From a virus: a stretch of DNA of 25,111 nucleotides. Shown piece by piece: positions 1,453 to 23,803 of this stretch. The stretch lies in IMG/VR virus record IMGVR_UViG_3300009128_000120, positions 1 through 25,111 of that record. One strand, given 5' to 3'. How positions within the stretch are numbered: position 1 is the stretch's first letter; the number at the start of each line of letters is the position of its first letter. The translations under genes were made by a program, and so were the position numbers. Under the pieces are notes generated by a model. That model made no database searches. It was not told the DNA's origin and worked only from the letters and a program-made list of their open reading frames with translations.

Positions 1453-1780
1453 CCAAAGGCTCATCCCCCGCATCCTATCCCTGCCCATCGAGTGCCGGAG
1501 GGCGCTTTGCGAGCAAGACGGCGCAGGCTGGTGGGTGGATCCCGACGGCAGAGATGTGCTGTCTGCGCGCGCGATACACGATGAGCACGACTGGAAGCTG
1601 CTCGCCGGGGGCTGGGCCTGGTGGCCTGCGGACTCGGCGGCGTGGATGCGGGCGACAGACAGGCGCTGGAAGGTTGAAGTATATCGAGACGGCCTCGTTG
1701 TCTGGGATGTTGCGAAAGGCTCCGGCTTTGGCAGCAGCGCCCCCGAAGCCGCGCTGGCGTACTGGGAGGGTGCAAGGTGA
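1442..1780 (+). CDS. Unknown Trp-rich phage protein
   Basis: This is a 112-residue protein from ATG 1442 with AAGGAG at 1429-1434. It carries repeated tryptophans (GWWVDPDG, DWKLLAGGWAWWP, RRWKVEVYRDGLVVWDV) and ends with APEAALAYWEGAR. The alternation of Trp/Tyr strands with short turns suggests a small beta-rich fold with a C-terminal helix. I do not recognise the family. Its stop overlaps the GTG start of the regulator-like gene at 1777, so they are likely coupled. Confidence 0.65.
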   Translation: MQPDQRLIPRILSLPIECRRALCEQDGAGWWVDPDGRDVLSARAIHDEHDWKLLAGGWAWWPADSAAWMRATDRRWKVEVYRDGLVVWDVAKGSGFGSSAPEAALAYWEGAR

Positions 1781-2415
1781 GCGACCTTCCTCGTCGGTAC
1801 GTGGGCGGTCCTGTCCGTCCTCCTCTCTCGCACCGCCTGGACGGCCGTGACCGGCTGGTGACGCCTGACTGGCACCTGGACGGCGAGGGGGACGTGATTC
1901 TGGTTCTGGAGGGACCTGGGGAGCCTTTGTCGGCGCCTGGGGTCTTGGAGGTGACGGAGGGTCCGCTGTCGGGTTCGTTGTTGGCGGTGGCTTTGGCGCT
2001 GGTGGTCTCGGTGGACGACGTTGGGGACTGCGCTCCGTCGCAGGCGGCGCTGATCCGCCGCTCGGGTCGGTCTCGCCGGACGGTCAAGCGAGCGCTGTCG
2101 TGGCTGGCTGGCAACGACGTTGTGAAGGTGGTGAGCCAGCCGGAGGGGAACCGGTATCTGTTGAACTGGGACCGGCTGGTCGGGCATCTTGCCTCCCCCC
2201 AGTATGACCGGCGTCAGCTTTTGCACGTCATGTTCTTCCGGTTGCCACCGAAGGAGGCAGCGGTGGTGTGGTTGCGTGCGAAGGAGGGCAAGTCTTTCAG
2301 CCAGGTGGGCGAGTGTTTGGGTTTCTCCAAGCAGCACGCCTGCAAGGTGTACCAGAGCGCGGTGGAGCGCATGAGAGGAGAGTTCGATGAAGGTGGTGAA
2401 GGAAGAGAAGCCTGA
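1777..2415 (+). CDS. Two-HTH DNA-binding protein (winged helix plus sigma-region-4-like), candidate small terminase or regulator
   Basis: This 212-residue protein starts at GTG 1777, overlapping the previous stop. Residues about 65-135 resemble an HTH_36-type winged helix: a helix (SLLAVALALVVSV), then PSQAALIRRSGRSRRTVKRA as the recognition unit, then a wing and YLLNWDRL. Residues about 155-202 look like sigma-70 region 4 (LPPKEAAVVWLRAKEGKSFS, then VGECLGFSKQHACKVYQSAV), where FSKQHACKVYQ would be the recognition helix. The N-terminal 60 residues are unassigned. The gene lies two genes before the large terminase, the usual place of the DNA-recognition small terminase, and no other gene here looks like one. 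It could equally be a late-gene transcription factor. DNA binding is well supported; which job it does is inference. Confidence 0.75.
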   Translation: MSDLPRRYVGGPVRPPLSHRLDGRDRLVTPDWHLDGEGDVILVLEGPGEPLSAPGVLEVTEGPLSGSLLAVALALVVSVDDVGDCAPSQAALIRRSGRSRRTVKRALSWLAGNDVVKVVSQPEGNRYLLNWDRLVGHLASPQYDRRQLLHVMFFRLPPKEAAVVWLRAKEGKSFSQVGECLGFSKQHACKVYQSAVERMRGEFDEGGEGREA

Positions 2416-2650
2416 GGAGCTGCACAAGCTCATCGTGAGGGCTCCTGACGGGACGGAGACGGAGGTCACCTCTGTCTGCGTGACCGGTCCTGACGGCATG
2501 GCGGTGCAGTGGAACCCTGCCGCCGCGATGTTCGACGAGGAGCGGGGGATGCTGGCGTATCCTTGCGATGCGCAGGCCTTGTCTCGGATGCGGTTCTGGG
2601 TGGCGTGGTGGGACAACTCCCTGCACGGGCAGCACCTGAAGGAGGTGTAG
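2387..2650 (+). CDS. Unknown 87-residue protein preceding the large terminase
   Basis: This frame starts at ATG 2387 with AGAGGAG at 2374-2380 and overlaps the end of the HTH gene by 29 nt. The 87 residues begin with a charged helix (MKVVKEEKPEELHKLIV), then beta-like stretches (TEVTSVCVTGPDGMAVQWNP) and a Trp-rich end (FWVAWWDNSLHGQHLKEV). No helix-turn-helix is obvious. Its TAG stop at 2648-2650 overlaps the GTG of the terminase at 2650, and its last codons supply the AAGGAGG site for that gene. It could be a packaging accessory factor or a small-terminase component. The function is not determinable from sequence. Confidence 0.65.
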   Translation: MKVVKEEKPEELHKLIVRAPDGTETEVTSVCVTGPDGMAVQWNPAAAMFDEERGMLAYPCDAQALSRMRFWVAWWDNSLHGQHLKEV

Positions 2651-4194
2651 TGCTCGGACAGGCCGCCCAGCGTCAGCAGGTGATGATGCGGTGCGCCGCG
2701 GACTACCGGTACTGGTGCGACCACTTCGTGCGGGTGTTCGACCAGCACAAGAAGCGTGTGGTGCCGTACCGGCCGTGGTCGGAGCAGGCGGAGCTCGACC
2801 TGTTGTGGCCGGAGCACGACAACATCCTGGGTCTGAAGGCTCGGCGCATCGGCTTTTCGTGGTGGGTGCAGACGAGGATGTTCTGGCAGTGGTACTTCGC
2901 CCGTGGGCCGGAGCAGTTCTTGGTGGCGGCGCAGTTGGACGGCACCGTGATGGACATCATCAAGCGGGACGCCAACAGCTTCTACGAGATGCTCTTGCGG
3001 CTGCCCAAGGGCTTGCAGCGGACCTTGTCTGTGCGGAACGCCCACAAGCTGCAGTTCGCGGACACCAAGGCCACCATCTTCGGCTTCAGCGAGAAGTCGG
3101 AGGGAGCCCGGGGCAAGGGTTGCAGCATGGCGTGGCTGACGGAGTACGCCTTCTACAGCCGGCAGGGCAAGTTCTACAGTTCGGTCGAGGCGGCCATCTC
3201 GGAGGCGGGCAAGTGCGTCATCGAGACGACGGTGAACAAGCCTGGGGACGACTACCACCGGGAGGTGGTCAAGGCGACGCAGGGGGATTCGGAGTTCCAC
3301 CTGGCGTTCTTCCCGTGGCACCAGCACGCCCGCTACCGGGCCCGCCGGATGGACAAGGACTTCGAGATGTCCGTGGACGAGCGGGAGTTCGCGGAGAGGT
3401 ACGGCTTGGACGAGCGGCAGGTGCTCTGGTATCGCCGCAAGCGGAAGAAGCACGGAGAGCGCACTCCTGCGGAGTACCCTTCGGACGTAGCGGACGCCTT
3501 CCGCATCGTGAAGGGTGTCTACTTCAAGCCGCACCTGCTGGACCCGGTGGAGGCGGTCCTGATGGCGGGCGAGGAGCTCGTGCTGGAGGAGGCCGCGGTC
3601 GGGGACGTGTACGGGCACGGGCTGGATATCGGCGGCGGTGTAGGTGCGGACGACAGCACGCACTACGTGGTCTCGGCCACGACGAAGCAGGTGGTGTACG
3701 TGAGGGCCACGAACCAGGTGTCCCCCGGCCAGTTCGCGGTGGAGCAGCTGGAGGTGATGCTGCGCTACCCGGGCATCGTGTGCATCGAGGCCTGGCCGGG
3801 ACCCGGCTCGGTGACCCTGGACCGGCTGCGCACGCTGGGCTTCGAGGAGGCCCGGCTGTGGAAATCGGCGCTGGAGAAGGACTGGCAGACGACGGCGCCG
3901 GCGAAGCTGGGGATGTACGAGCTGGTGAAGGACCTCTTGCACCACCAGGTCATCCAGCGGCTGCCTGCGCCGTGCGTGTTGCAGATGCAGGCGATGATCT
4001 GCCCGAAGGTGGCTCCGCAGCATCCGCCCGGAGGCAACGACGACCACCCGGACGGGCTGGGCCTGGCTCACCAGGCGGTCAAGAAGATCCCGTTCGAAGA
4101 GAAGATGACGGCCTCGAAGGAGAGGTCTCGCAACCTGAAGAAGCGCTACGACGCCGCTCGCGCGCGGCGGAAGCAGCTGCCCTGGGAGTTCTGA
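2650..4194 (+). CDS. terL: Terminase large subunit (packaging ATPase and nuclease)
   Basis: This 514-residue motor ATPase pumps phage DNA through the portal and cuts the concatemer. The start GTG 2650 follows AAGGAGG at 2638-2644; the frame extending upstream is a shadow of the previous gene. The Walker A-like motif is KARRIGFSW (63-71), the deviant terminase form with the lysine early. The Walker B-like motif is SMAWLTEYAFY (159-169), with Glu165 as the catalytic carboxylate and Thr in place of the usual Asp. IETTVNKPG (191-199) fits the coupling motif. The RuvC/RNase H-like nuclease runs from LDIGGGVGADDS (325-336, Asp326) through VCIEAWPGPGS (377-387, Glu380) to GGNDDHPDGL (461-470, Asp465/Asp468). 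Length is normal for the family. The portal gene follows one small gene later. The assignment is firm; the packaging strategy cannot be told from this. Confidence 0.95.
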   Translation: MLGQAAQRQQVMMRCAADYRYWCDHFVRVFDQHKKRVVPYRPWSEQAELDLLWPEHDNILGLKARRIGFSWWVQTRMFWQWYFARGPEQFLVAAQLDGTVMDIIKRDANSFYEMLLRLPKGLQRTLSVRNAHKLQFADTKATIFGFSEKSEGARGKGCSMAWLTEYAFYSRQGKFYSSVEAAISEAGKCVIETTVNKPGDDYHREVVKATQGDSEFHLAFFPWHQHARYRARRMDKDFEMSVDEREFAERYGLDERQVLWYRRKRKKHGERTPAEYPSDVADAFRIVKGVYFKPHLLDPVEAVLMAGEELVLEEAAVGDVYGHGLDIGGGVGADDSTHYVVSATTKQVVYVRATNQVSPGQFAVEQLEVMLRYPGIVCIEAWPGPGSVTLDRLRTLGFEEARLWKSALEKDWQTTAPAKLGMYELVKDLLHHQVIQRLPAPCVLQMQAMICPKVAPQHPPGGNDDHPDGLGLAHQAVKKIPFEEKMTASKERSRNLKKRYDAARARRKQLPWEF

Positions 4195-4472
4195 TGGAGA
4201 CCGAAGAGCTGTACGTCCTGATGGAGAGCGAACTTCTCATCGCTGGCCAGGTGTGGGAGGCGCCGGACGGGCAGACCATCATGGTCGAGAGGGTCCTTCA
4301 CACCATGCTCCACTGCAAGGGCAAGGACGAGAAAATCTATTCAGGTGCGAGCGACCTGAAGCATGAGAGGGAGTGGTTCGTCACCGACTGCCGGCTCATC
4401 TGGGATCCTCGCATCGGCAAGCCCCGCTTCGAGCTTGACCCTTCGGACCTTAGCAGGAGGCCTCCAGCATGA
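4194..4472 (+). CDS. Unknown 92-residue protein between terminase and portal
   Basis: This protein starts at ATG 4194, sharing one base with the terminase stop, and its own stop overlaps the portal ATG at 4469. It opens with an acidic helix (METEELYVLMESELLIAG). An apparent small beta domain follows (VWEAPDGQTIMVERVLHTML), then ASDLKHEREWFVTDCRLIWD. No motif is recognised. Its placement inside the packaging cluster, with coupled translation on both sides, suggests co-expression with TerL and portal. Confidence 0.65.
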   Translation: METEELYVLMESELLIAGQVWEAPDGQTIMVERVLHTMLHCKGKDEKIYSGASDLKHEREWFVTDCRLIWDPRIGKPRFELDPSDLSRRPPA

Positions 4473-6082: not shown

Positions 6083-6541
6083 ATGCCCATGTACGAGTAC
6101 CGGTGCGGTTGCGGGTGGCAGGACGACGAGATCGTCCCTCCGCAGTGCGAGCCGCCGTCGCACATCGAGTGCCCCCATTGCGGCGGGGACGCGAAGCGCC
6201 GCGGGTTCATCGCCATCGCCAGGTGCCCAGGCCTGTGGGCTCCGGTCGGGGAGGTCATTCCCGCGCTGGGCGGCCTGGTCAAGGGATCCCGGGATTTCGA
6301 CCGTCGCATGGAGGAGCGTGGCCTGGTGCGCGCCGAGGACGTGGAAGACCGGGTGGACAGCATCATGTCGAAGAACGAGGACGAGGCGGCGCAGTTCAGG
6401 CGGGACAGCGAGGAGATCCGTCGTCGCACCCGCGAGTACGGCGGCGGCCACGAGGCCGAGGCCAACGCCACCGCCGAGGTCTACAACCCCCATCGCCTGG
6501 AGGCCATGGTCTCCGAAGGCACCATCCCAGCACCGGAGTAG
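6083..6541 (+). CDS. FmdB-type zinc-ribbon protein within the head operon
   Basis: This 152-residue protein starts at ATG 6083; the MPMYEYRCGCGW opening fits the MPxYEYxC signature of FmdB-like zinc ribbons, which favours this start over ATG 6089. Likely metal ligands are Cys8 and Cys10 (spaced CxC instead of the usual CxxC) with Cys30 and Cys33 in CPHCGGDAKRRGF; Cys22 is also available. After residue 45 comes an unrelated helical, charged tail (RRMEERGLVRAEDVEDRVDS). FmdB-like ribbons were named from a transcriptional regulator of formamidase genes, but most members are uncharacterised. Here, between portal and scaffold, a structural or assembly role is as likely as a regulatory one. Zinc binding is well supported; function is open. 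Confidence 0.8.
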   Translation: MPMYEYRCGCGWQDDEIVPPQCEPPSHIECPHCGGDAKRRGFIAIARCPGLWAPVGEVIPALGGLVKGSRDFDRRMEERGLVRAEDVEDRVDSIMSKNEDEAAQFRRDSEEIRRRTREYGGGHEAEANATAEVYNPHRLEAMVSEGTIPAPE

Positions 6542-7024: not shown

Positions 7025-7963
7025 ATGCTGTGGAAAAACCTTTTCGCACCCGTCGCCCTACATGGACCTGGAGGTCTCCATGTCGTGGAAGGATCTCCAG
7101 AAGGAGACGATCCTGGTGGAGGTGGTGTGGAAGAACCCGAATCTTTCACTCCCGAGCCTGCTTCTGAGCCCGAGCCTGCGAAACCCGATGAGCCTGAACC
7201 TCCATCCTTCGAAGAGGTCCTCCAGGCGCTGAGCGAGAGCGACGACCCCGACCTGTCAGGGGACGAGCCGCTCAAGGGCGTGGACTACCAGGCCGTGCTG
7301 AACGACCCGGAGCTCGACCCCCGCGCCAAGGCCCTGCTGCGCGGCCTGAGGCAACTGGTCACCAAGAAGACCCAGGCCGTCTCCGAAGAGCAGAAGAGCC
7401 TGGAGCGCGCCAGGCAGGAGCTCGCCGAGCGGCAGAAGGCGCTGCTGGAGGGGGACTTCCAGGACGCCCTGAAGGCCCAGGCCGAGGGCCCCAAGGAGGA
7501 GGAGGCCGCCAAGTACGACCCCTACGACCCCGACAAGACCCAGGCCTACATCCAGCAGCAGATCCAGCAGGGCGTGGCGCAGGCCATGCAGCAGCTCACC
7601 GGCAAGCTGCAGGAGGTCCAGCAGCTGCAGACCAGGCAGCGGGCCCTGGACGAGTTCAAGGCCTCCAACCCGGACCTGACGGAGAACCAGGAGGTTCGGA
7701 TGGAGGTGGCCAAGCTGCTGGAGGCCAACGAGGGCATGAAGCTCGAGCACGCCTACGGGCTGGTCAAGGCCAGGGGAGCCAAGAGCGAGGTGGAGCGCCT
7801 GCGCGAGGAGAACCAGCGCCTGCGAGCGACCGCCCAGGAGCACGGCTACCGCACCGGAGGGGCGCCCGGCCCGGCCGGCTCGGACGTTCCCGCGGAGATC
7901 ATCGCGGACCCGGACCCCAACGTGCTGATGGCCTACCTGGAGGCGCAGCGCCAGAAGAAGTAG
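7025..7963 (+). CDS. Probable capsid scaffolding protein
   Basis: This frame of up to 312 residues lies immediately before the capsid gene, the usual scaffold position. ATG 7025 has AAGGAG at 7013-7018. From about residue 60 onward it looks like a scaffold: acidic, low in aromatics, with long coiled coils (SLERARQELAERQKALLEGD; QAYIQQQIQQGVAQAMQQLT; SEVERLREENQRLRATAQE) and a short C-terminal helix (NVLMAYLEAQRQKK) that could dock on the capsid protein. Scaffolds guide procapsid assembly and then leave. Residues 1-60 are suspect. They are Gly/Pro/Glu-rich with weak G/C bias at third positions, while another frame over 7040-7232 shows the usual strong bias. The N-terminus may therefore be mis-framed or dual-coded. 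The body of the call is solid; the start is not. Confidence 0.75.
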   Translation: MLWKNLFAPVALHGPGGLHVVEGSPEGDDPGGGGVEEPESFTPEPASEPEPAKPDEPEPPSFEEVLQALSESDDPDLSGDEPLKGVDYQAVLNDPELDPRAKALLRGLRQLVTKKTQAVSEEQKSLERARQELAERQKALLEGDFQDALKAQAEGPKEEEAAKYDPYDPDKTQAYIQQQIQQGVAQAMQQLTGKLQEVQQLQTRQRALDEFKASNPDLTENQEVRMEVAKLLEANEGMKLEHAYGLVKARGAKSEVERLREENQRLRATAQEHGYRTGGAPGPAGSDVPAEIIADPDPNVLMAYLEAQRQKK

Positions 7964-7990
7964 TTGACGCCCCGCCTCAGTACAGAGGCG
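7964..7990 (+). promoter_or_regulatory. Promoter-like element, copy 1 (before capsid gene)
   Basis: TTGACG at 7964-7969, 11 nt, then TACAGAGGC at 7981-7989, in the 118-nt gap before the capsid gene. CGCCTC (7973-7978) and GAGGCG (7985-7990) form a 6-bp dyad with a 6-nt loop. The same arrangement with identical spacing occurs at 9592 and 22330. The 11-nt spacing is too short for a sigma-70 -35/-10 pair. The likely role is a phage-type promoter, with RNA starting near G7985 and giving a leader of about 97 nt. The role is inferred; the recurrence is seen directly. Confidence 0.6.
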
Positions 7991-9104: not shown

Positions 9105-9533
9105 ATGATCAACAATGCACGAGGACTTGGCATCAGCGACCGCCGCACGGTAGTCGTGACCATGCTGGCTGGTGGCGCCATCGTCGCCAAGCAGACCGTG
9201 GCTCTGGACACCTCCCAGACTGACGCGGACATGGCCGAATACGTGGTGCAGGCGCCCACCAGCTCTCCCTACGCGGTGGGCATCGCGCTCGAGGCGGCCA
9301 CCGGGGCCGGCGAATCCATCCGCGTGGCCCTGGCCGGTTTCGTTGAGGATGCGGTCGTGGACAACGTGACGGCCGGAGACCTGCTGGTCCTGGACGCCGC
9401 GTCCGCAGGCACGCTGCAAACCTACGTCAACACCGACACCAACCCGCAGTTCGCAGTCGCGCTGGAGTCCCACGCGTCGGCCGCGAATGTGTGGCTCTTC
9501 GGTCTTGGTCTCGGCCTGGCCGGCAGCATCTAG
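9105..9533 (+). CDS. Capsid cement/decoration protein
   Basis: This 142-residue protein from ATG 9105 has AAGGAG at 9094-9099, overlapping the capsid stop codon. The sequence is almost all beta strand with small residues (RRTVVVTMLAGGAIVAKQTV; GESIRVALAGFVEDAVVDNV; TAGDLLVLDAASAGTLQTYV). The V-x-AGDLLxxD-x-A-x-AG stretch is characteristic of small head-decoration proteins such as the DUF2190-like group. These bind outside the capsid lattice and stabilise it. Position right after the capsid gene and size both agree. A stable hairpin follows its stop, so the capsid and cement genes form one unit. Confidence 0.75.
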   Translation: MINNARGLGISDRRTVVVTMLAGGAIVAKQTVALDTSQTDADMAEYVVQAPTSSPYAVGIALEAATGAGESIRVALAGFVEDAVVDNVTAGDLLVLDAASAGTLQTYVNTDTNPQFAVALESHASAANVWLFGLGLGLAGSI

Positions 9534-9554: not shown

Positions 9555-9583
9555 GGCTCGGCCCCCGGGCGGGGGGCCGGGCC
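9555..9583 (+). terminator. Very stable GC hairpin after capsid/cement genes
   Basis: GGCTCGGCCCCC (9555-9566) pairs with GGGGGCCGGGCC (9572-9583) around a GGGCG loop. This is a 12-bp stem with a single G-T wobble, 22 nt after the cement stop. No T-tract follows (the next bases are CCAATGCG), so it is not a textbook intrinsic terminator. In high-GC genomes U-less hairpins can still attenuate transcription or protect upstream mRNA from 3' decay. It separates the capsid unit from the next promoter-like element, 8 nt downstream. Confidence 0.6.
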
Positions 9584-9591
9584 CCAATGCG

Positions 9592-9622
9592 TTGACGGGC
9601 CACCCCCATACAGGAGGTGGCC
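9592..9622 (+). promoter_or_regulatory. Promoter-like element, copy 2 (before head-tail adaptor gene)
   Basis: TTGACG at 9592-9597, 11 nt, then TACAGGAGG at 9609-9617, matching the spacing of the copies at 7964 and 22330. GGCCACC (9598-9604) and GGTGGCC (9616-9622) form a 7-bp dyad whose sequence differs from copy 1 while pairing is kept. AGGAGG (9612-9617) also acts as the Shine-Dalgarno site for the downstream start at 9623, so promoter, dyad and ribosome site overlap here. Confidence 0.55.
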
Positions 9623-17261: not shown

Positions 17262-20200
17262 ATGCCCCTGACCGAAGAGCAGCGCCTCCGTGTGGAAGAG
17301 GTGAGGAAGGCCCAGGGGGACGCATACGCGGACGTGCTGCTGGAGGCCTACGAGACCCAGCGGCGCCCGGCCATCGAGACCGAGGGCCCCTCCCTGCCCG
17401 AGGACCCCAAGCACGACCCGAAGCTCATCCCGGGGCAGGCCCCCTTCGCTGCCGACCCGGGCCCACCGAGGCGGAAGACGACCACCCCGCGCCTGCTGGA
17501 GAGCCGAGCCCAGCTGGTGCGCATGGAGAAGAAGCGCCTGCAGGAAGGAGGGCTCTCCGAGGAGGAAGCGGACGCCAAGGCCCGGGAGAAGATGCGCCGG
17601 CTCTTCAAGCCACGGGAGCCCGGCTACCACGCGCGCCCATCCATCGCTCCCGCCAAGCGCAAGCCCTGGGAGTTGGAGGGGCTGTCGGCCCTGGGCGAGG
17701 CCTTCAAGCAGCAGCGCCTGGAGACGCCGGAGGAGCAGTTTGAGAGGAAGGAGTCCCAGCGCCAAGGCCGGGAGACGCGTCGCAGGCTGATGGAGGACTT
17801 CGACCGTGAGTCCAAGAGGTTGGGCGTCCCCGTCGGGGACCTGATCACCGCGCACCTCGCCCGCCAGCAGGCCCAGTTCCACCACGTGGCGCCGGAGTAC
17901 TACGAGCGGGCCACGAACAAGTCCATGGAGACGGCCACCCCTGAAGACATCAACGCGATGGGGAGGCAGCTTTACCACGACTACGTGCAGCAGGTCTTCC
18001 CCGAGCGCATGACCGAGGAGCAGCGCAGCCTGAAGAAGAAGGCCGTCTCGATGGCGAGCGATGTCCTGCAGAGCGCGCTGGTCAAGGAGGAGGAGGGCTT
18101 CCTCACCGAGACCCTGCTGGGCACGGTCATGCGGGATGTGGCAGGCATCTGGCGCACAGCCTTGACTCCGCTGCAGGAGGTCCTGACCTACGACGTGGAC
18201 GAGGAGGGCAAGCCGGTAGACCCGGAGGACATCGCCTACAAGATCGGCAAGTGGCTGGACGAGAAGGGCGCGCCTCCCGTGCTGACGGCGAAGGGCCTGC
18301 CGCTGGTGGCCCCCCGTCCCTTCCAGGCCAGGAAGCTCGACCCGGAGCGCCAGGGCTTGGACTACTTCCAGAGCGTGGCCAAGGACATCGCGCAGATGCG
18401 GTTCCTGGGCGACGATTTCACCGACCTGCCGTCCTACCAGGAGTGGTGGGAGGCGGCGGGCAACCCGAAGGCACCCTGGGTGGTGGGCCTGGGCGCCGAG
18501 CTGGTGCTGCCCATCGTGCCCCCGGTGGTCCGCTGGGCGCAGATGCTCATGAAGGGCGGGGCTTCCGTGGCTCGCGCAGGGCGCCTCGCCAAGGTGGCCG
18601 ACATCATCGACAAGGGAGCGCACCCGGTGCTCGGCATGCGGGCCGACAAAGCCAAGCGGCTGGTCATGTCCGCCACCGCCGGCACCGGAGAGGTGAAGCT
18701 CCCCACGGGCATCGACGCGCACAGCGTGCGGGCCGCCGGAGCCGAGCACCTCGGGAGGGAAGCTGCCGCCGCGCACATCCTGAACGCCACCAAGAACCCC
18801 GAGCGCTACGTCGGCAGGCTCGGGCTGGCCGAGACCGAGGTTGGCGCCCGGGTGGTGAGGGAGGGCCCGGATTTCCTGGAGGGCTTCGTCAAGGCGCTGG
18901 ACGACAGCGACAACCCGCTCACCAGGCGGGCCTCGGGCTGGGCGCGGCAAGCTCTGCGCTCGGTGCGCGAGGGCGACATCGAGGGCAGCAGGGCTGCCAT
19001 CACCGCGGCCAGGGCCACCGAGAGCCAGAAGGCTCTGCGCCAGGCAGAGCGCATCCTTGCGCGCACGGATCTGAGAGACGTTGAACGGGCCCGCGCACTG
19101 GAGGAACTGGCCAAGGCTCAGCCCAGGACGCCCACCGCGCTGGGCCAGGCCGTGCAGGACATCACGACCAGCAAGGTCTACCTGGAGCTGCTGGACCAGG
19201 TGCCCGGGGACATGGTCTTCGCCACCCCCACCACCGTGGTGAGCCGCAAGGCCTGGGGCCAGGTCAAGGGCCACGTGGAGCAGGGCGCCCGACGCCTGCT
19301 GAAGGGAACCTGGGACGACGCCGGAGAGTGGCGGGCCGCCACCCCCCAGGCGGCCAAGGAGTTGACCCGCATCATGGGCCCGCAGGCCATCCTGCGCTCC
19401 GAGGAGTTCTGGCTGCCCACCTGGCAGTCCCTGCGCGCGGGCACCCCCATCTCCCAGCGGGCCTACCAGGCGGTCTCGGATGCCATCGTTGGCGACCTGG
19501 TGCTGCGGGCGGTGGACGACTCGGCCACGCTGCAATGGCACGGGAAGGCCGCAGCCAGAGCCGCCAAGCCTGCCGAGCGTCGCCTCCCAGGAAGGGAGTG
19601 GGGAGACATCGGCCGAGGGATCCGGGAGGCCTTCAGGAAGGCGCCAGACCTGCAGCCCGGCAAGGTTGGGCTGCCCGCTGAGTTGACCGTCAAGGGCCGC
19701 ACACCGATAGCCATCGCCAACTGGATCAACCGCAGCAAGGAGCGTATCGCCAACCTGGTCGAGGAGTTGTCGCGGGACTTCGCCGCCACCCAGCGCGGCC
19801 CGGCTGGGTTCCAGCAGGTGCTCGACAAGTCGGTGGACCACCTCCTCGCCCCCATCAAGAAGCAAATAGACCAGGTGCTGGACGCCATGGAACAGCCGGG
19901 GCTGTCCAACAAGGCCAAGGACAGGCTACAGGCCCAACTCGAGAAGCTGGAAGAAGCGCGCCGGCTGGAGTTGGATGAGATCTGGGGCGATATGGCCAAG
20001 ATCTTCTTCGGCCCGGAGGCATGGCCAGTCGAGGGCTCCCCTCGCATCATCCGCCAGTTGTCTGGCAGCGCCGAGATCAACGCGCGCAACCTGCAGGCCT
20101 ACATCAAGAACGCTCGCGCATACTTCCACAAGGACCTGCCGAAGAAGGGCCTGGCTCCCAGCCACATCGGCAAGAGACAGGACGCTCTGTTTGAAACCCT

Positions 20201-22298
20201 CACCTCCTGGCTGGTGCAGATCAGGCGCAACCAGATGCTGAAGCAGCTCGGACACGAGGTGGTGCAGGAGACGCCGGAGCTTGCCTTCCCGGGGCGCCTC
20301 ATCGGCACCCCCTCCCTGGTGCAGGACGCCCTGGTGGCGGCCCCCCCCAACTTGCAGGTCGAGGCCCGCAACATCATGAACGCCGCCCTGCGGGAGGTGT
20401 CCGAGCAGAGGGCCCCTCTCAACGAGGCGATCCTCTTCGGCTCCGACGGCAACGGCGGCCTCATCGGACGCCAGCTTCTGCGGAACCGAAGACCAGCCAC
20501 CCTGCTGGATGTCATGGACGACGTGGAGTTCAAGGCGTTGGACGGAGTCAAGGGCCCCTTGAAAGACTGGGCCTACGACCTGAAGCAGTCCCTGCTGCGC
20601 CCTGCCTACGAGTTCCAGCTCAAGACCATGACCGAGCACGGGGTGCTGCGTGCCGGGAGACTGGGCGAGCCTGTGGCCTTCGAGCCAACGCACCTGTTCC
20701 GCATCGACGGGCAGGCGGTGGGAGCCCTTCTGGGTGAGCAGGCGGCCAAGCTCGTCGAGGACCTCGAGGAGGTGCTTAAGAGCGGGGCGGTGGGCAAGCA
20801 GCTCGAGCCCCTGCGGCGCATAGAGAAGGGCGCGGTGCATAGCAGGCTGTCAGCCACCTACGGTTGGGCAGCTTTCGTGGACACATGGAACACCCTGCGC
20901 CGGGCCACCGTCGGCGGCCTGTTGGGCGGCTTCGTGCTGCCAATCACGCGCTTCCACGCGATCAACTTCATGACCGCCCCCGTCATCATGGCCACCACGC
21001 TGGGGCCGAAGATGGCGGCCAAGGCCTCTGTCAGCGCCGTCGCGGACCTGGGATCCATGCTGGCGGCCAGGGCTCTACCAGGAGCAGCCGACGAGGTGCT
21101 CTTCGTGGCCGAGGGAACGGGCAGGGAGTGGACCCGTGGCGCCCTGGAGGCGGCCATCCTGCGGAACAACATCCGCTTCTCCCAGGTCAGCTTCGAGTTC
21201 GGCGACGTGATGCTCTTCGAGATGCGCCGCCTGCTGCGCACCGACTCCCGCATCCTCAAGAGCTTCAAGCCCTACGGCCCGCGGCAGGTCCTGCGCTGGC
21301 TGGACCCCACGAACAAGAACCTGTGGTCCACGCTGGCCGAGGCGAACGACAATCTCTTCAGGAAGAACGTCTTCACCACCGCCCTGAAGGAAGGGCGAAC
21401 CGAGGCTGAAGCCGCCCACCTGGCTCGCAACGCCTTGCTGGACTACGGCGCGATGGGTCAGAAGGAGAAGGAGATCATCGCCCGCATCATGCTGTTCTAC
21501 GCCTTCCGCAGGCAGATGGCGCTGGAGACCGCGCGGGCGGCGCTGAACAAGCCGGGCACCCTGCGCGCCATGATGCAGGCCCAGCAGCAGCAGCAGAAGG
21601 ACGCCGGGGTGTGGGCGCTGGCCCCCGAGGACTACCAGGTTCGGATGTGGGGCTACCTGTCCGACAAGATGCAGGACGACCAGGCCTTCACCGCTCACTT
21701 CGGGCCTGGCAACCCCACCATGGAGAGCTTCCAGGACATGCTGGCGGTGTTCGCCTTCATCGCCTCGACCCCCAAGGACTGGGGCACCCTGCGCCGGGGC
21801 ACCGAGGAGTTTCTCTTCTCGCCCGAGCTCGAGCTCTGGAAGGAGATCCGGCAGTGGGGGGCGAAGGAGAGGCACGGCGGGTTCGTGGACCCACGCTACG
21901 TGTCGACCATGATGGAGGCCGACCTGTGGCCCTGGTTCTACGACGCCTTCGACATCGAGGCGGTCAAGGGCGAGCAGCGCAGGGGAGGGGAGCCCACCTT
22001 CCACCAGGCGCAGTTCCGGTTCGGCTCGGCCGAGGGCGAGCACGCCTACCTGGGCTTCAAGTACGCAGCCCAGAAGTTGGCGCTGGAGCGGGGCTTCAAG
22101 GACTGGGCCACGGCGGCCATGATCGCCGGGGAGCTTGGGCCGGAGGGCTCGGACCTCAAGCGCTACGCCGACGAGAAGGGGTGGGGGCAGGCGCTGCAGT
22201 ACGCACTGACCCTGGATACGCCCATCAAGATCCCCGACGAGTTCGGCCGCAGGGCCGAGGTCATCAGGAAGATCGAGCGGGAGCTCACCGCCAGGTAG
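17262..22298 (+). CDS. Giant internal virion (DNA ejection) protein
   Basis: This 1678-residue protein from ATG 17262 is the largest gene in the window. It starts with a Pro/Lys/Glu-rich helical region and has an apolar segment at about residues 405-430 (WVVGLGAELVLPIVPPVVRW). Long helical stretches cover residues 430-1200. A hydrophobic Gly/Ala region spans about 1215-1275 (ATVGGLLGGFVLPITRFHAI and onward), and a conserved-looking helical end follows (RIMLFYAFRRQMALETARAA, then a Gln run). T7 gp16 (1318 residues) is the last and largest ejection protein and forms the inner-membrane channel; position and apolar segments here agree. I see no lysozyme or transglycosylase motif in the N-terminus, unlike T7 gp16. 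Some large phage polyvalent proteins look similar, so that remains an alternative. Confidence 0.65.
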   Translation: MPLTEEQRLRVEEVRKAQGDAYADVLLEAYETQRRPAIETEGPSLPEDPKHDPKLIPGQAPFAADPGPPRRKTTTPRLLESRAQLVRMEKKRLQEGGLSEEEADAKAREKMRRLFKPREPGYHARPSIAPAKRKPWELEGLSALGEAFKQQRLETPEEQFERKESQRQGRETRRRLMEDFDRESKRLGVPVGDLITAHLARQQAQFHHVAPEYYERATNKSMETATPEDINAMGRQLYHDYVQQVFPERMTEEQRSLKKKAVSMASDVLQSALVKEEEGFLTETLLGTVMRDVAGIWRTALTPLQEVLTYDVDEEGKPVDPEDIAYKIGKWLDEKGAPPVLTAKGLPLVAPRPFQARKLDPERQGLDYFQSVAKDIAQMRFLGDDFTDLPSYQEWWEAAGNPKAPWVVGLGAELVLPIVPPVVRWAQMLMKGGASVARAGRLAKVADIIDKGAHPVLGMRADKAKRLVMSATAGTGEVKLPTGIDAHSVRAAGAEHLGREAAAAHILNATKNPERYVGRLGLAETEVGARVVREGPDFLEGFVKALDDSDNPLTRRASGWARQALRSVREGDIEGSRAAITAARATESQKALRQAERILARTDLRDVERARALEELAKAQPRTPTALGQAVQDITTSKVYLELLDQVPGDMVFATPTTVVSRKAWGQVKGHVEQGARRLLKGTWDDAGEWRAATPQAAKELTRIMGPQAILRSEEFWLPTWQSLRAGTPISQRAYQAVSDAIVGDLVLRAVDDSATLQWHGKAAARAAKPAERRLPGREWGDIGRGIREAFRKAPDLQPGKVGLPAELTVKGRTPIAIANWINRSKERIANLVEELSRDFAATQRGPAGFQQVLDKSVDHLLAPIKKQIDQVLDAMEQPGLSNKAKDRLQAQLEKLEEARRLELDEIWGDMAKIFFGPEAWPVEGSPRIIRQLSGSAEINARNLQAYIKNARAYFHKDLPKKGLAPSHIGKRQDALFETLTSWLVQIRRNQMLKQLGHEVVQETPELAFPGRLIGTPSLVQDALVAAPPNLQVEARNIMNAALREVSEQRAPLNEAILFGSDGNGGLIGRQLLRNRRPATLLDVMDDVEFKALDGVKGPLKDWAYDLKQSLLRPAYEFQLKTMTEHGVLRAGRLGEPVAFEPTHLFRIDGQAVGALLGEQAAKLVEDLEEVLKSGAVGKQLEPLRRIEKGAVHSRLSATYGWAAFVDTWNTLRRATVGGLLGGFVLPITRFHAINFMTAPVIMATTLGPKMAAKASVSAVADLGSMLAARALPGAADEVLFVAEGTGREWTRGALEAAILRNNIRFSQVSFEFGDVMLFEMRRLLRTDSRILKSFKPYGPRQVLRWLDPTNKNLWSTLAEANDNLFRKNVFTTALKEGRTEAEAAHLARNALLDYGAMGQKEKEIIARIMLFYAFRRQMALETARAALNKPGTLRAMMQAQQQQQKDAGVWALAPEDYQVRMWGYLSDKMQDDQAFTAHFGPGNPTMESFQDMLAVFAFIASTPKDWGTLRRGTEEFLFSPELELWKEIRQWGAKERHGGFVDPRYVSTMMEADLWPWFYDAFDIEAVKGEQRRGGEPTFHQAQFRFGSAEGEHAYLGFKYAAQKLALERGFKDWATAAMIAGELGPEGSDLKRYADEKGWGQALQYALTLDTPIKIPDEFGRRAEVIRKIERELTAR

Positions 22299-22300
22299 TT

Positions 22301-22330
22301 GTCGGTGTCGGTGTCGGTGTCGGTGTCGGT
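22301..22330. repeat. Five perfect tandem copies of GTCGGT
   Basis: The hexamer GTCGGT is repeated exactly five times (30 bases), starting two bases after the giant-gene stop and ending on the first T of the TTGACG motif of promoter-like copy 3. Tandem hexamers can change copy number by slippage. Here that would alter the sequence just upstream of the element without touching a coding frame. Confidence 0.9.
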
Positions 22331-22355
22331 TGACGCACGACTCCTCTACAGAGGC
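22330..22355 (+). promoter_or_regulatory. Promoter-like element, copy 3 (before tail fibre gene)
   Basis: TTGACG at 22330-22335, 11 nt, then TACAGAGGC at 22347-22355, the same spacing as the copies at 7964 and 9592. CCTCT (22342-22346, reading C-T-C-C-T-C-T) and AGAGG (22350-22354) form the dyad. This copy also contains ACGACTC (22337-22343) upstream of TACAG, which recalls the T7 consensus ACGACTCACTATAGGG with one extra base; the other two copies lack ACGACTC. RNA starting near G22351 would have a leader of about 82 nt. The promoter role is inferred. Confidence 0.58.
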
Positions 22356-22432: not shown

Positions 22433-23803
22433 ATGGCCTGGTTGAAGACACGCGACGTGCGAACCAACTGCATCATCGCACGGCACATCACCGCCAACAT
22501 CATCGCCTACGACAAGCTCACCATCACCGAGGGGAACATCCTCATCGGCGACAGCAGCAACAACGGCGAGCTGCTGGACGTAGGCGCTGCGGCCGGAGCC
22601 CTGGCCATCGGCGACGGGGCTGGAGACATCACCGTGCGCCAGCTGTCGGGAGCCATCTCCCTGTCAGCCACGGGCGTAACCGCGCTGACGGGTTTCCTGC
22701 CCACGGCGGGCTCCAAGCAGACCATCTCAAGCGGAACCCTGACCCTGGGCGGCGTGCCTGTCGCGCTGGTCGAGGGCGAGGCCGGAGCGGCTGACAACCT
22801 GGACACCATGGCGGGCATGGCGGATGGCGAGATCGCCTTCCTCTACTGCTACGACGCAGCCGCCAACATCACCATCCGAGACAACGCCGTCGGTGGTGGC
22901 AACATCTACACCCCCCGGGCCGCCAGCATCGTGCTGGACGTGGTCCAGGACGGCGTGGTCATCCAGCGCCAGGGCACCGACTACATGGTGCTGGCCAAGA
23001 TGCTGCAGGCCGGCTGGGGCACCACCACCCAAGCGCCGGGCACCTCCGACAGCGGCACCGCCAGCATCACCATGGGCGGTAGCACCGCCAGCGGCACGGC
23101 TTCCATCTCCATGGGAGGCAATACCGCCAGTTCGACGGCCACCGTCACGGAGAACAACCCCGATCCCAGCATGTCGATGTGGATGAACCCGGGCGCCGCG
23201 GGCGGCGTAAACCTGGTCCCGCAGAAGGCGGTGGACTTCGACGAGAGCACCTGGGGCAACATCACCCAGATGAACGAGTCTCCCCGGAACGTGCAGGCAG
23301 ACTTCAGCGGCACCTGGGATGGCGGCAACATCGAGATCACCGGCCTGGACAGCACCGGAGCGGACACCACCGAGACCATCACCGCCAGCGCTGGCTCGGT
23401 GGTGCAGGGAACCAAGGGCTGGCACAAGGTACGGCGCATCCGCAACCTGGGCACCCGCACCGCCGGCACCGTGGACGTGCAGGACGGAGACAAGATCGGC
23501 GTGCATGTCGGCAGCCTCACTCCCGGCAACCTGGAGGCATACGAGCTCTCCGCTGGTGGCCGGGACGCGGGCGCCAGCATTGCCTCCAGCGGTCTGATCA
23601 CCTTCAGCACCGCCCTGAACGGTGCGCGCGACTACTACGTCACGTTCACGCTGGCCAACGCCTACACCGACGCCGGCCACACCCACGGCGCCACCGGGCT
23701 CACCGCCACGGACAGCGGCCACACCCACGGTGCCACGGGGTTGACCGCCACGGATGCGGGGCACACCCACACCCACAGCGCCACCCACATCCACACGGTG
23801 TAG
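22433..23803 (+). CDS. Tail fibre with C-terminal HxH repeats
   Basis: This 456-residue protein from ATG 22433 has GGAGG at 22423-22427. The start (IIARHITANIIAYDKLTITE) is followed by NILIGDSSNNGELLDVGAAA and GDITVRQLSGAISLSATGVT, short beta repeats typical of trimeric fibre shafts. Two 13-residue repeats (GTASITMGGSTAS, GTASISMGGNTAS) lie at about residues 208-233. The C-terminus has GHTHGATGLTATD repeated and ends AGHTHTHSATHIHTV. HxH motifs in T4 fibres coordinate iron along the trimer axis, so the same is expected here. It follows the internal virion genes as T7 gene 17 does, with promoter-like copy 3 in front. No T7-type N-terminal tail-attachment domain is evident. This is probably the main receptor-contact protein. 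Confidence 0.8.
   Translation: MAWLKTRDVRTNCIIARHITANIIAYDKLTITEGNILIGDSSNNGELLDVGAAAGALAIGDGAGDITVRQLSGAISLSATGVTALTGFLPTAGSKQTISSGTLTLGGVPVALVEGEAGAADNLDTMAGMADGEIAFLYCYDAAANITIRDNAVGGGNIYTPRAASIVLDVVQDGVVIQRQGTDYMVLAKMLQAGWGTTTQAPGTSDSGTASITMGGSTASGTASISMGGNTASSTATVTENNPDPSMSMWMNPGAAGGVNLVPQKAVDFDESTWGNITQMNESPRNVQADFSGTWDGGNIEITGLDSTGADTTETITASAGSVVQGTKGWHKVRRIRNLGTRTAGTVDVQDGDKIGVHVGSLTPGNLEAYELSAGGRDAGASIASSGLITFSTALNGARDYYVTFTLANAYTDAGHTHGATGLTATDSGHTHGATGLTATDAGHTHTHSATHIHTV
23054..23131 (+). repeat. Two 39-nt tandem repeats in the fibre shaft
   Basis: Two adjacent copies encode GTASI(T/S)MGG(S/N)TAS at 23054-23092 and 23093-23131. The DNA has drifted at several positions (for example GGCGGTAGC against GGAGGCAAT) while the protein pattern is kept, so the duplication is old and under selection. 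Confidence 0.75.
23675..23758 (+). repeat. Two 42-nt tandem repeats encoding HxH motifs
   Basis: Each unit encodes 14 residues, GHTHGATGLTATD plus one residue, at 23675-23716 and 23717-23758. A partial third unit follows (GHTHTH). Copy number could change the length of the metal-binding tip without a frameshift. Confidence 0.85.

Follow-up and report, generated by a model that had tools for sequence, protein, structure and literature searches.

A sigma region 4-like protein encoded ahead of the terminase gene of an uncultured phage and its putative link to the element TTGACG-N11-TACAG

Does a small DNA-binding protein encoded just ahead of the packaging genes of a phage select DNA for packaging, or does it control transcription? 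The question is raised by the open reading frame (ORF) at positions 1777..2415 (+ strand) of the IMG/VR record IMGVR_UViG_3300009128_000120, one linear contig of an uncultured bacterial virus, which was analysed over its whole length of 25,111 bases and is called the window here. The frame starts with GTG and encodes a protein of 212 amino acids (aa) with a domain resembling region 4 of sigma factors (sigma-4). According to the original prediction, the protein could recognise pac or cos DNA as a small terminase subunit (TerS), or it could drive late genes, possibly by reading copies of the motif TTGACG-N11-TACAG, referred to below as the element. The protein is likely to be a transcription regulator of some kind. 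The more specific reading that we tentatively favour from comparison of sequences, that it is a phage sigma-4-like late-gene regulator acting through the element, has in our judgement nearly an even chance of being correct.

A sigma-4-like protein shared with a sister phage

The C-terminal part of the protein (about residues 150-203; 2224..2385, + strand) is firmly predicted to be a sigma-70 region 4-like domain. It is matched by profiles from Pfam, PHROGs, and NCBIfam, and the Pfam model Sigma70_r4 aligns to residues 155-200 with an E-value of 7.9e-6 and 25.7 bits, above the cut-off of 24.1. The cut-off is passed more strongly (2.5e-7, 30.6 bits) by a homologous 126-aa protein encoded at 1297-1677 of locus L014, directly before the gene of the terminase large subunit (TerL). 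L014 is a contig of 10,365 bases and the closest relative found, with TerL, portal, and capsid proteins that are 47%, 52%, and 53% identical to those of the window. The best NCBIfam matches of both homologues are sigma factor models, which for the window protein (SigB/F/G, ECF, and planctomycete models) all score far under their full-length cut-offs. At the recognition helix, the window protein has SKQHACK and the L014 protein TRQGACR; by eye, the first basic residue there corresponds to R584 of E. coli sigma-70, a residue that contacts the -35 box. With the L014 homologue as query, 19 phage records were retrieved at E 10; the matches listed cover the sigma-4 part only, and the annotated ones among them are mostly sigma factors of Bacillus phages.

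The frame of the L014 homologue was singled out by phmmer among 4,700 frames (4.1e-7), and the score of its sigma-4 domain against that of the window protein was reached in none of 2000 shuffles. The two proteins also have in common an N-terminal segment (window residues 6-45, RRYVG...; 1792..1911, + strand), which BLASTP aligns at 45% over 42 columns with a pairwise E of 6e-4, a score equalled in 0 of 2000 shuffles. The homology has two weak points. BLASTP over the same 4,700 frames returns nothing at E 1, and the first pairwise BLASTP piece, as well as a MAFFT alignment, pairs the N-terminus of the L014 protein with the winged helix of the window protein; the N-terminal homology rests on the second BLASTP piece and on the shuffles.

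The ORF overlaps the stop end of the preceding gene by four bases and has GGGAGGG ahead of its start. Its length is no proof of a gene, because long frames are common in GC-rich DNA: the window contains 36 open frames of at least 245 codons, compared to a mean of 22 in random models. The proof is carried by the domain match and the conserved homologue, and the 212-residue protein originally predicted at this position is encoded by a real gene. Its third-position GC is 0.77, close to the 0.74-0.77 of three in-frame accessory genes and below the 0.93 of terL; the comparison leaves out the rows starting at 751, 1104, 1363, 4193, 7090, and 24062, the frames of which are wrong or uncertain. In L014, the corresponding values are 0.69 for the sigma-4 gene and 0.85 for terL.

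The middle of the protein (about residues 63-135; 1963..2181, + strand) is a probable winged helix, with weaker support than the sigma-4 domain. The profile phrog_270, "replication initiation protein", aligns to residues 80-140 at 3.7e-7, and the match to HTH_36 (3.1e-4) is under the Pfam cut-off. Single-sequence AlphaFold modelling of the whole protein gave low confidence (mean pLDDT 45.8), as did that of the fragment of residues 60-208 (mean pLDDT 58.4), in which three helices and a two-strand wing (H-H-H-E-E) are followed by further helices. The list of similar structures from VIA is dominated by winged-helix regulators, the best being 8ioi_A (Z 6.5, rmsd 3.3, 74 aligned); a Z of 6.5 is middling and can mean just a common arrangement. 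A Foldseek search with the protein model found nothing at E 0.001 in PDB or BFVD. Structure prediction, which had been proposed as a check on each half, thus yielded a winged-helix arrangement in low-confidence models, and the sigma-4 half rests on sequence, because most of the VIA rows concern the part with the winged helix. The winged helix has no counterpart in the L014 homologue (1731 of 2000 shuffles scored as well). Therefore, the unusual fusion of winged helix and sigma-4 domain noted in the original prediction holds firmly for its second part, probably for its first, and is not conserved as a combination. The winged helix was either gained in the window lineage or lost in the L014 lineage, as far as two sequences compared without an outgroup can tell.

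The TTGACG-N11-TACAG element and its carriers

Exact copies of the element occur three times in the window, all on the + strand, against a mean of 0.00 in 100 shuffles and an expectation from composition of about 0.005. They were located by pattern matching at 7964..7985, ahead of the major capsid gene (start 8082); at 9592..9613, ahead of a tail-type gene (9617); and at 22330..22351, ahead of the gene 22433-23803. These copies occupy the three gaps longer than 80 bases between annotated genes, and the 326-base right end of the contig contains no copy. L014 also has three exact copies (3307, 7725, and 9388), ahead of its portal, capsid, and tail-type genes, where the mean in shuffles is 0.00 and the expectation from composition about 0.002. 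The copies at 7725 and 9388 are the counterparts of the window copies ahead of the capsid and tail-type genes, and the L014 contig ends before the point equivalent to the third. Because the same fixed pattern recurs there three times, L014 serves as an independent test of the element. In the window, the place ahead of the portal gene (4469) is taken by a degenerate copy that ends 12 bases before the gene (4435..4456, + strand); it scores 14.0 in a profile scan in which the next best non-member scores 6.1.

Between the two phages, the half-sites of the capsid and tail-type copies are identical (6/6 and 5/5), whereas the 11-base middle matches at only 3/11 and 4/11 positions, fewer in proportion than the 40-base flanks (18-24/40). 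The portal copies match at 5/6, 6/11, and 3/5 positions of the first half-site, middle, and second half-site. The middle is not conserved among the window's own copies either. Of the six exact copies, three continue after TACA with GAGG and the other three with GGAGG (window 9592, L014 3307 and 9388); in the latter, GGAGG is probably the Shine-Dalgarno sequence of the following gene.

Two other explanations of the element were rejected. An RNA hairpin came into question because some copies have a CCTC upstream with which GAGG could pair, but it is not a common feature, since the folds differ between copies. An ordinary promoter does not fit, as no -10-like hexamer was seen by eye 17 bases past TTGACG in any of the six exact copies. 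Five tandem copies of TGTCGG (22300-22329) lie directly upstream of the third exact element of the window. A very GC-rich stretch precedes the tail-type element in both phages (window about 9562-9585, CCCCCGGGCGGGGGGCCGGGCCCC; L014 about 9358-9387) and may act as a terminator behind the capsid genes.

The distribution of gene and element was surveyed among relatives of the window. As a query, the window protein found no relatives in phage genomes (tblastn, E 1), viral contigs, or genome contigs; neither did TerL, capsid, portal, and a 1678-aa protein as single queries among viral contigs, nor the capsid, portal, 690-aa, and 1678-aa proteins among phage genomes. The clade was opened by a scan with the 690-aa protein (six loci) and then by a TerL profile, of which the best 80 of 175 confirmed loci were used. 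A second TerL profile gained only L094, at 21% identity, and a TerL search of genome contigs found no relatives. The Sigma70_r4 cut-off was passed in two of 34 records, the window and L014, and in none of 50 more (four of the 88 records were left out). The exact element was present in the same two of 34 whole records and, among the 86 loci L008-L093, in L014 only. Elements of a similar kind were sought in the 44 loci with portal, capsid, and tail-type starts, using 121 bases upstream and 20 shuffles, a limit that made the test miss the real capsid copy of L014. Shuffles were exceeded by L014 (13 versus a maximum of 11) and L064 (11 versus 10) only; the L064 candidate, one base above its shuffles, was taken as chance, and no further convincing shared element was recognised in these 44 loci. 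Matches to the element with one mismatch in 11 other loci lie on both strands at scattered places and were also taken as chance. Co-occurrence thus links gene and element, without proving that one reads the other, and it counts as one event, since the carriers form one clade of two.

Candidate functions of the protein and readers of the element

The reading of the protein as a late-gene regulator acting through the element is supported by the homologue before terL in L014, by the three copies of the element in each phage, and by the same two phages being the carriers of both. The domain, its conservation in the sister phage, the matching places of the element, and the joint presence in two phages but in no other relative searched were observed directly. 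Conservation of the half-sites while the middle differs is counted for this reading, as is the accessory-like third-position GC. The gene of the putative regulator lies where the small accessory genes give way to those for packaging and head. The sigma-4-like domain probably contacts DNA in the manner of sigma region 4 at a -35 box, and the likeliest target of this predicted binding is the TTGACG half of the element, which would be natural because the sigma-70 -35 box is TTGACA. The regulator would then recruit RNA polymerase to late genes of the head and tail, while the TACAG half may be read by a second factor or by the resident sigma. We infer in this way the DNA binding, the polymerase contact, and the late timing of the protein. 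The proposal that the protein drives late genes by reading the motif has been strengthened by the matching places in L014 and the shared carriers; it has lost the winged helix as a necessary part, since L014 keeps the element without that domain. An essential role of the winged helix and the sigma-4 domain in reading one half each was rejected for the same reason.

Several observations weigh against this reading. The spacing of 11 bases is too short for an ordinary pair of -35 and -10 boxes, which are separated by 16-18. If TACAG was the -10 box, the tail-type transcripts would start at or after the probable Shine-Dalgarno GGAGG; a start 6-8 bases past TACAG would lose GGAGG, which fits a single-subunit polymerase starting at TACA/G better. 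The three L014 copies are nearly identical through the middle, as in a contiguous promoter, and the portal copy of the window is degenerate. Within the window, the significance of the element is modest: its shared 24-mer was reached in 0 of 300 shuffles, yet 7 of 300 random triples were as good. Sigma region 2 gave no match up to E 1 in the window or L014 protein, sigma models align by their C-terminal ends only, and no polymerase-binding part was found in the protein. The winged helix is dispensable where the element is kept. The co-presence of gene and element may be mere descent, because the carriers are each other's closest relatives here. A bolder form of the regulator reading, in which a stand-alone sigma-4 module split from a sigma factor and working with a partner for the other half-site defines a new class of late promoters at 11-base spacing, with a winged helix inserted in one lineage, is possible but doubtful.

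The main rival reader of the element would be a single-subunit RNA polymerase of the phage, encoded outside the contig and starting at TACA/G, with the sigma-4-like protein regulating something else, for example host or early transcription. Start regions of T7-type promoters are purine-rich, as are GAGG and GGAGG after TACA, and T7 likewise has promoters ahead of its capsid and tail-fibre genes. A start at TACA/G would keep the Shine-Dalgarno sequence in the messenger, and the near-identity of the three L014 copies through the middle speaks for such a promoter. T7-type polymerases read the middle region of the promoter, however, and that of the element is conserved neither between the phages nor among the window copies. 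According to the available extract of the source, a strong promoter of the KP34 polymerase contains TTACAGGAG, which is also present in two of the L014 copies (PMC6834552). The polymerase family PF00940 was found in none of 34 records including the window, although the KP34 and CRP-7 controls match; the window and L014 are fragments. On balance, this explanation is unlikely.

It is also improbable that the protein is a different DNA-binding regulator, such as a repressor or switch of accessory or early genes, that has nothing to do with the element. Its third-position GC groups the gene with the accessory genes, and a repressor could plausibly be a small protein with two domains that bind DNA. 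However, the slot next to terL is common to the window and L014, and the gene co-occurs with the element, though in two sister phages only.

The small-terminase question was addressed by a survey of the slot before terL. A TerL frame is present in 83 loci, of which 65 also have a frame of at least 100 aa upstream of it; the nearest such frame was used, which in L014 is an overlapping frame, 1398-1703, rather than the sigma-4 gene. Fifty-two of the 65 slot proteins form one BLAST cluster, and a PHROG of the terminase small subunit is the best match for nine of ten sampled members (L090 has none). Their Pfam labels are mostly helix-turn-helix (HTH) or transposase-HTH, and two slot proteins (L038 and L064) pass the Terminase_5 cut-off. 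The claim that the protein sits in a TerS slot with no other TerS evident is borne out in part: the slot of the relatives is usually of the TerS type, and none is visible in the window by PHROG scans or the TerS profile, but the contig ends upstream. Among 536 frames of the window and L014, the TerS profile matches best, though weakly, the frame 1-285 at the start of the L014 contig (E 0.002), aligning from just past the HTH to near the end. This frame, which lies some 1 kb ahead of the sigma-4 gene, looks like a TerS truncated at its start by the edge of the contig, and by analogy a TerS of the window would lie beyond its left end. Sigma70_r4 matches weakly (12.4-13.6 bits) in four of 50 relative records, each time within the TerS gene, and the L034 TerS reaches 20.8 bits with Sigma70_r4_2, under the cut-off of 25.7. 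Therefore, a weak sigma-4 match by itself would not exclude a TerS; the window and L014 proteins differ from those TerS in matching Sigma70_r4 above its cut-off along almost the full domain.

The protein is probably not a small terminase, and its recognition of pac or cos DNA in that role is very improbable: the position ahead of the packaging genes, the sigma-4-like HTHs of the relatives' TerS proteins, and the published winged-helix TerS of Sam46 (PMC8190038, available extract) speak for it, but the protein has no match to PHROG TerS models up to E 1 and just 0.5 bits to the profile of the 52 slot proteins, L014 has a separate TerS-like gene end, and the HTH is C-terminal, followed by only one helix and six residues in the low-confidence whole-protein model.

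Neighbouring genes and known late regulators

The genes of the window are tightly packed on the + strand. The small accessory genes and the sigma-4-like gene are followed by an 87-aa protein (2387..2650, + strand; no Pfam or PHROGs match up to E 1) and by TerL (2650..4194, + strand; phrog_2, E 2.6e-21). Then come the portal gene, named mainly from its position (the phrog_1216 match is just 0.007), a scaffold-like gene assigned by place, the major capsid gene (phrog_9953, 1.6e-9), and tail-type genes, including that at 9617, with weak matches. The order continues with the 1678-aa protein and the gene 22433-23803, perhaps that of a fibre from its place alone. A small protein with a zinc-ribbon-like start (CxC...CPHCGG) is encoded at 6083-6541 between portal and scaffold and has relatives in L008 and L014. 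In the comparisons of window genes with the relatives, rows of the query g4193 are disregarded, as it had been read in a wrong frame, with X at stops. The 1678-aa protein (17262-22298) has no PHROG match up to E 0.1, no phage match, and partial relatives in L011 and L012; its position suggests an internal virion protein. The frame 23969-24598 matches phrog_1501, the function of which is not annotated, at E 1.3e-24. Among the relatives, L012:1-896 and L013:1-1651 have near-identical terL genes but differing upstream genes with only about the last 23 residues in common, and the slot before terL looks to have been swapped there by recombination.

Known systems are compared here as far as the available extracts of the cited papers describe them. 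The xpf gene lies just before the terminase genes of the B. subtilis prophage PBSX. Xpf (NCBIfam PRK06930) is called positive control factor and is likewise a small prophage protein with sigma region 4 (PMC10141391). It is listed with sigma regions 2 and 4, and the extract does not mention a winged helix. With PRK06930, which has a cut-off of 136 bits, the L014 homologue scores only 12.5, and the window protein does not appear among its matches. ArpU is another family of late transcriptional regulators, like RinA and Ltr. Those two switch on late genes of Gram-positive phages, and RinA is encoded upstream of terS (PMC13123087). The genes described here similarly lie just upstream of the packaging genes, with the 87-aa gene between in the window and directly before terL in L014. 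The matches to NCBIfam up to E 1 included no RinA, ArpU, or Ltr model, in a library that was not checked for holding these families. Ltr genes are directly upstream of their own promoter, whereas the nearest element here is the degenerate copy 2 kb on. Late regulators encoded next to packaging genes, small sigma-like ones among them, are thus already known (Xpf; RinA/Ltr).

Other systems resemble the element or the domain arrangement. SaPh711_gp47 of phage 7-11 is a region 4 protein that serves late genes through a bipartite promoter, GTAAtg-(16)-aCTA (PMC8948821); its spacing is 16 rather than 11, and it acts as a sigma factor in vitro, whereas the proteins described here gave no region 2 match. 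In T4 middle promoters, the distance between the MotA box and the -10 box is 12 +/- 1 bp, near the 11 of the window element (PMC2988021), and gp33 is described as a sigma-4 mimic that makes up a split sigma with gp55 (PMC2988020). No sequence relation to these proteins is claimed. TACAG is a poor -10 box, and the sequence of gp33 is not recognisably similar to those of sigma proteins. The TerS of Bacillus phages Sam46 and Sam112 is, like the window protein, a small protein encoded before terL with a winged helix (FtsK_gamma) and a second DNA-binding part (PMC8190038). It has Terminase_2, whereas the window protein matches no Pfam or PHROGs terminase model up to E 1. No single family searched accounted for the exact combination, for the element and its spacing, or for the additional winged helix, and these were not seen in the open full-text literature, in searches not built to prove absence.

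The results caution against naming every HTH gene before terL a small terminase. The orphan sigma-4-like protein is tied to a defined DNA element through comparison of genomes, so that the putative switch of late genes in this group of uncultured phages can be put to a direct test. If a sigma-4 module does act at 11-base spacing, it would widen the view of how phages split and re-use sigma factors.
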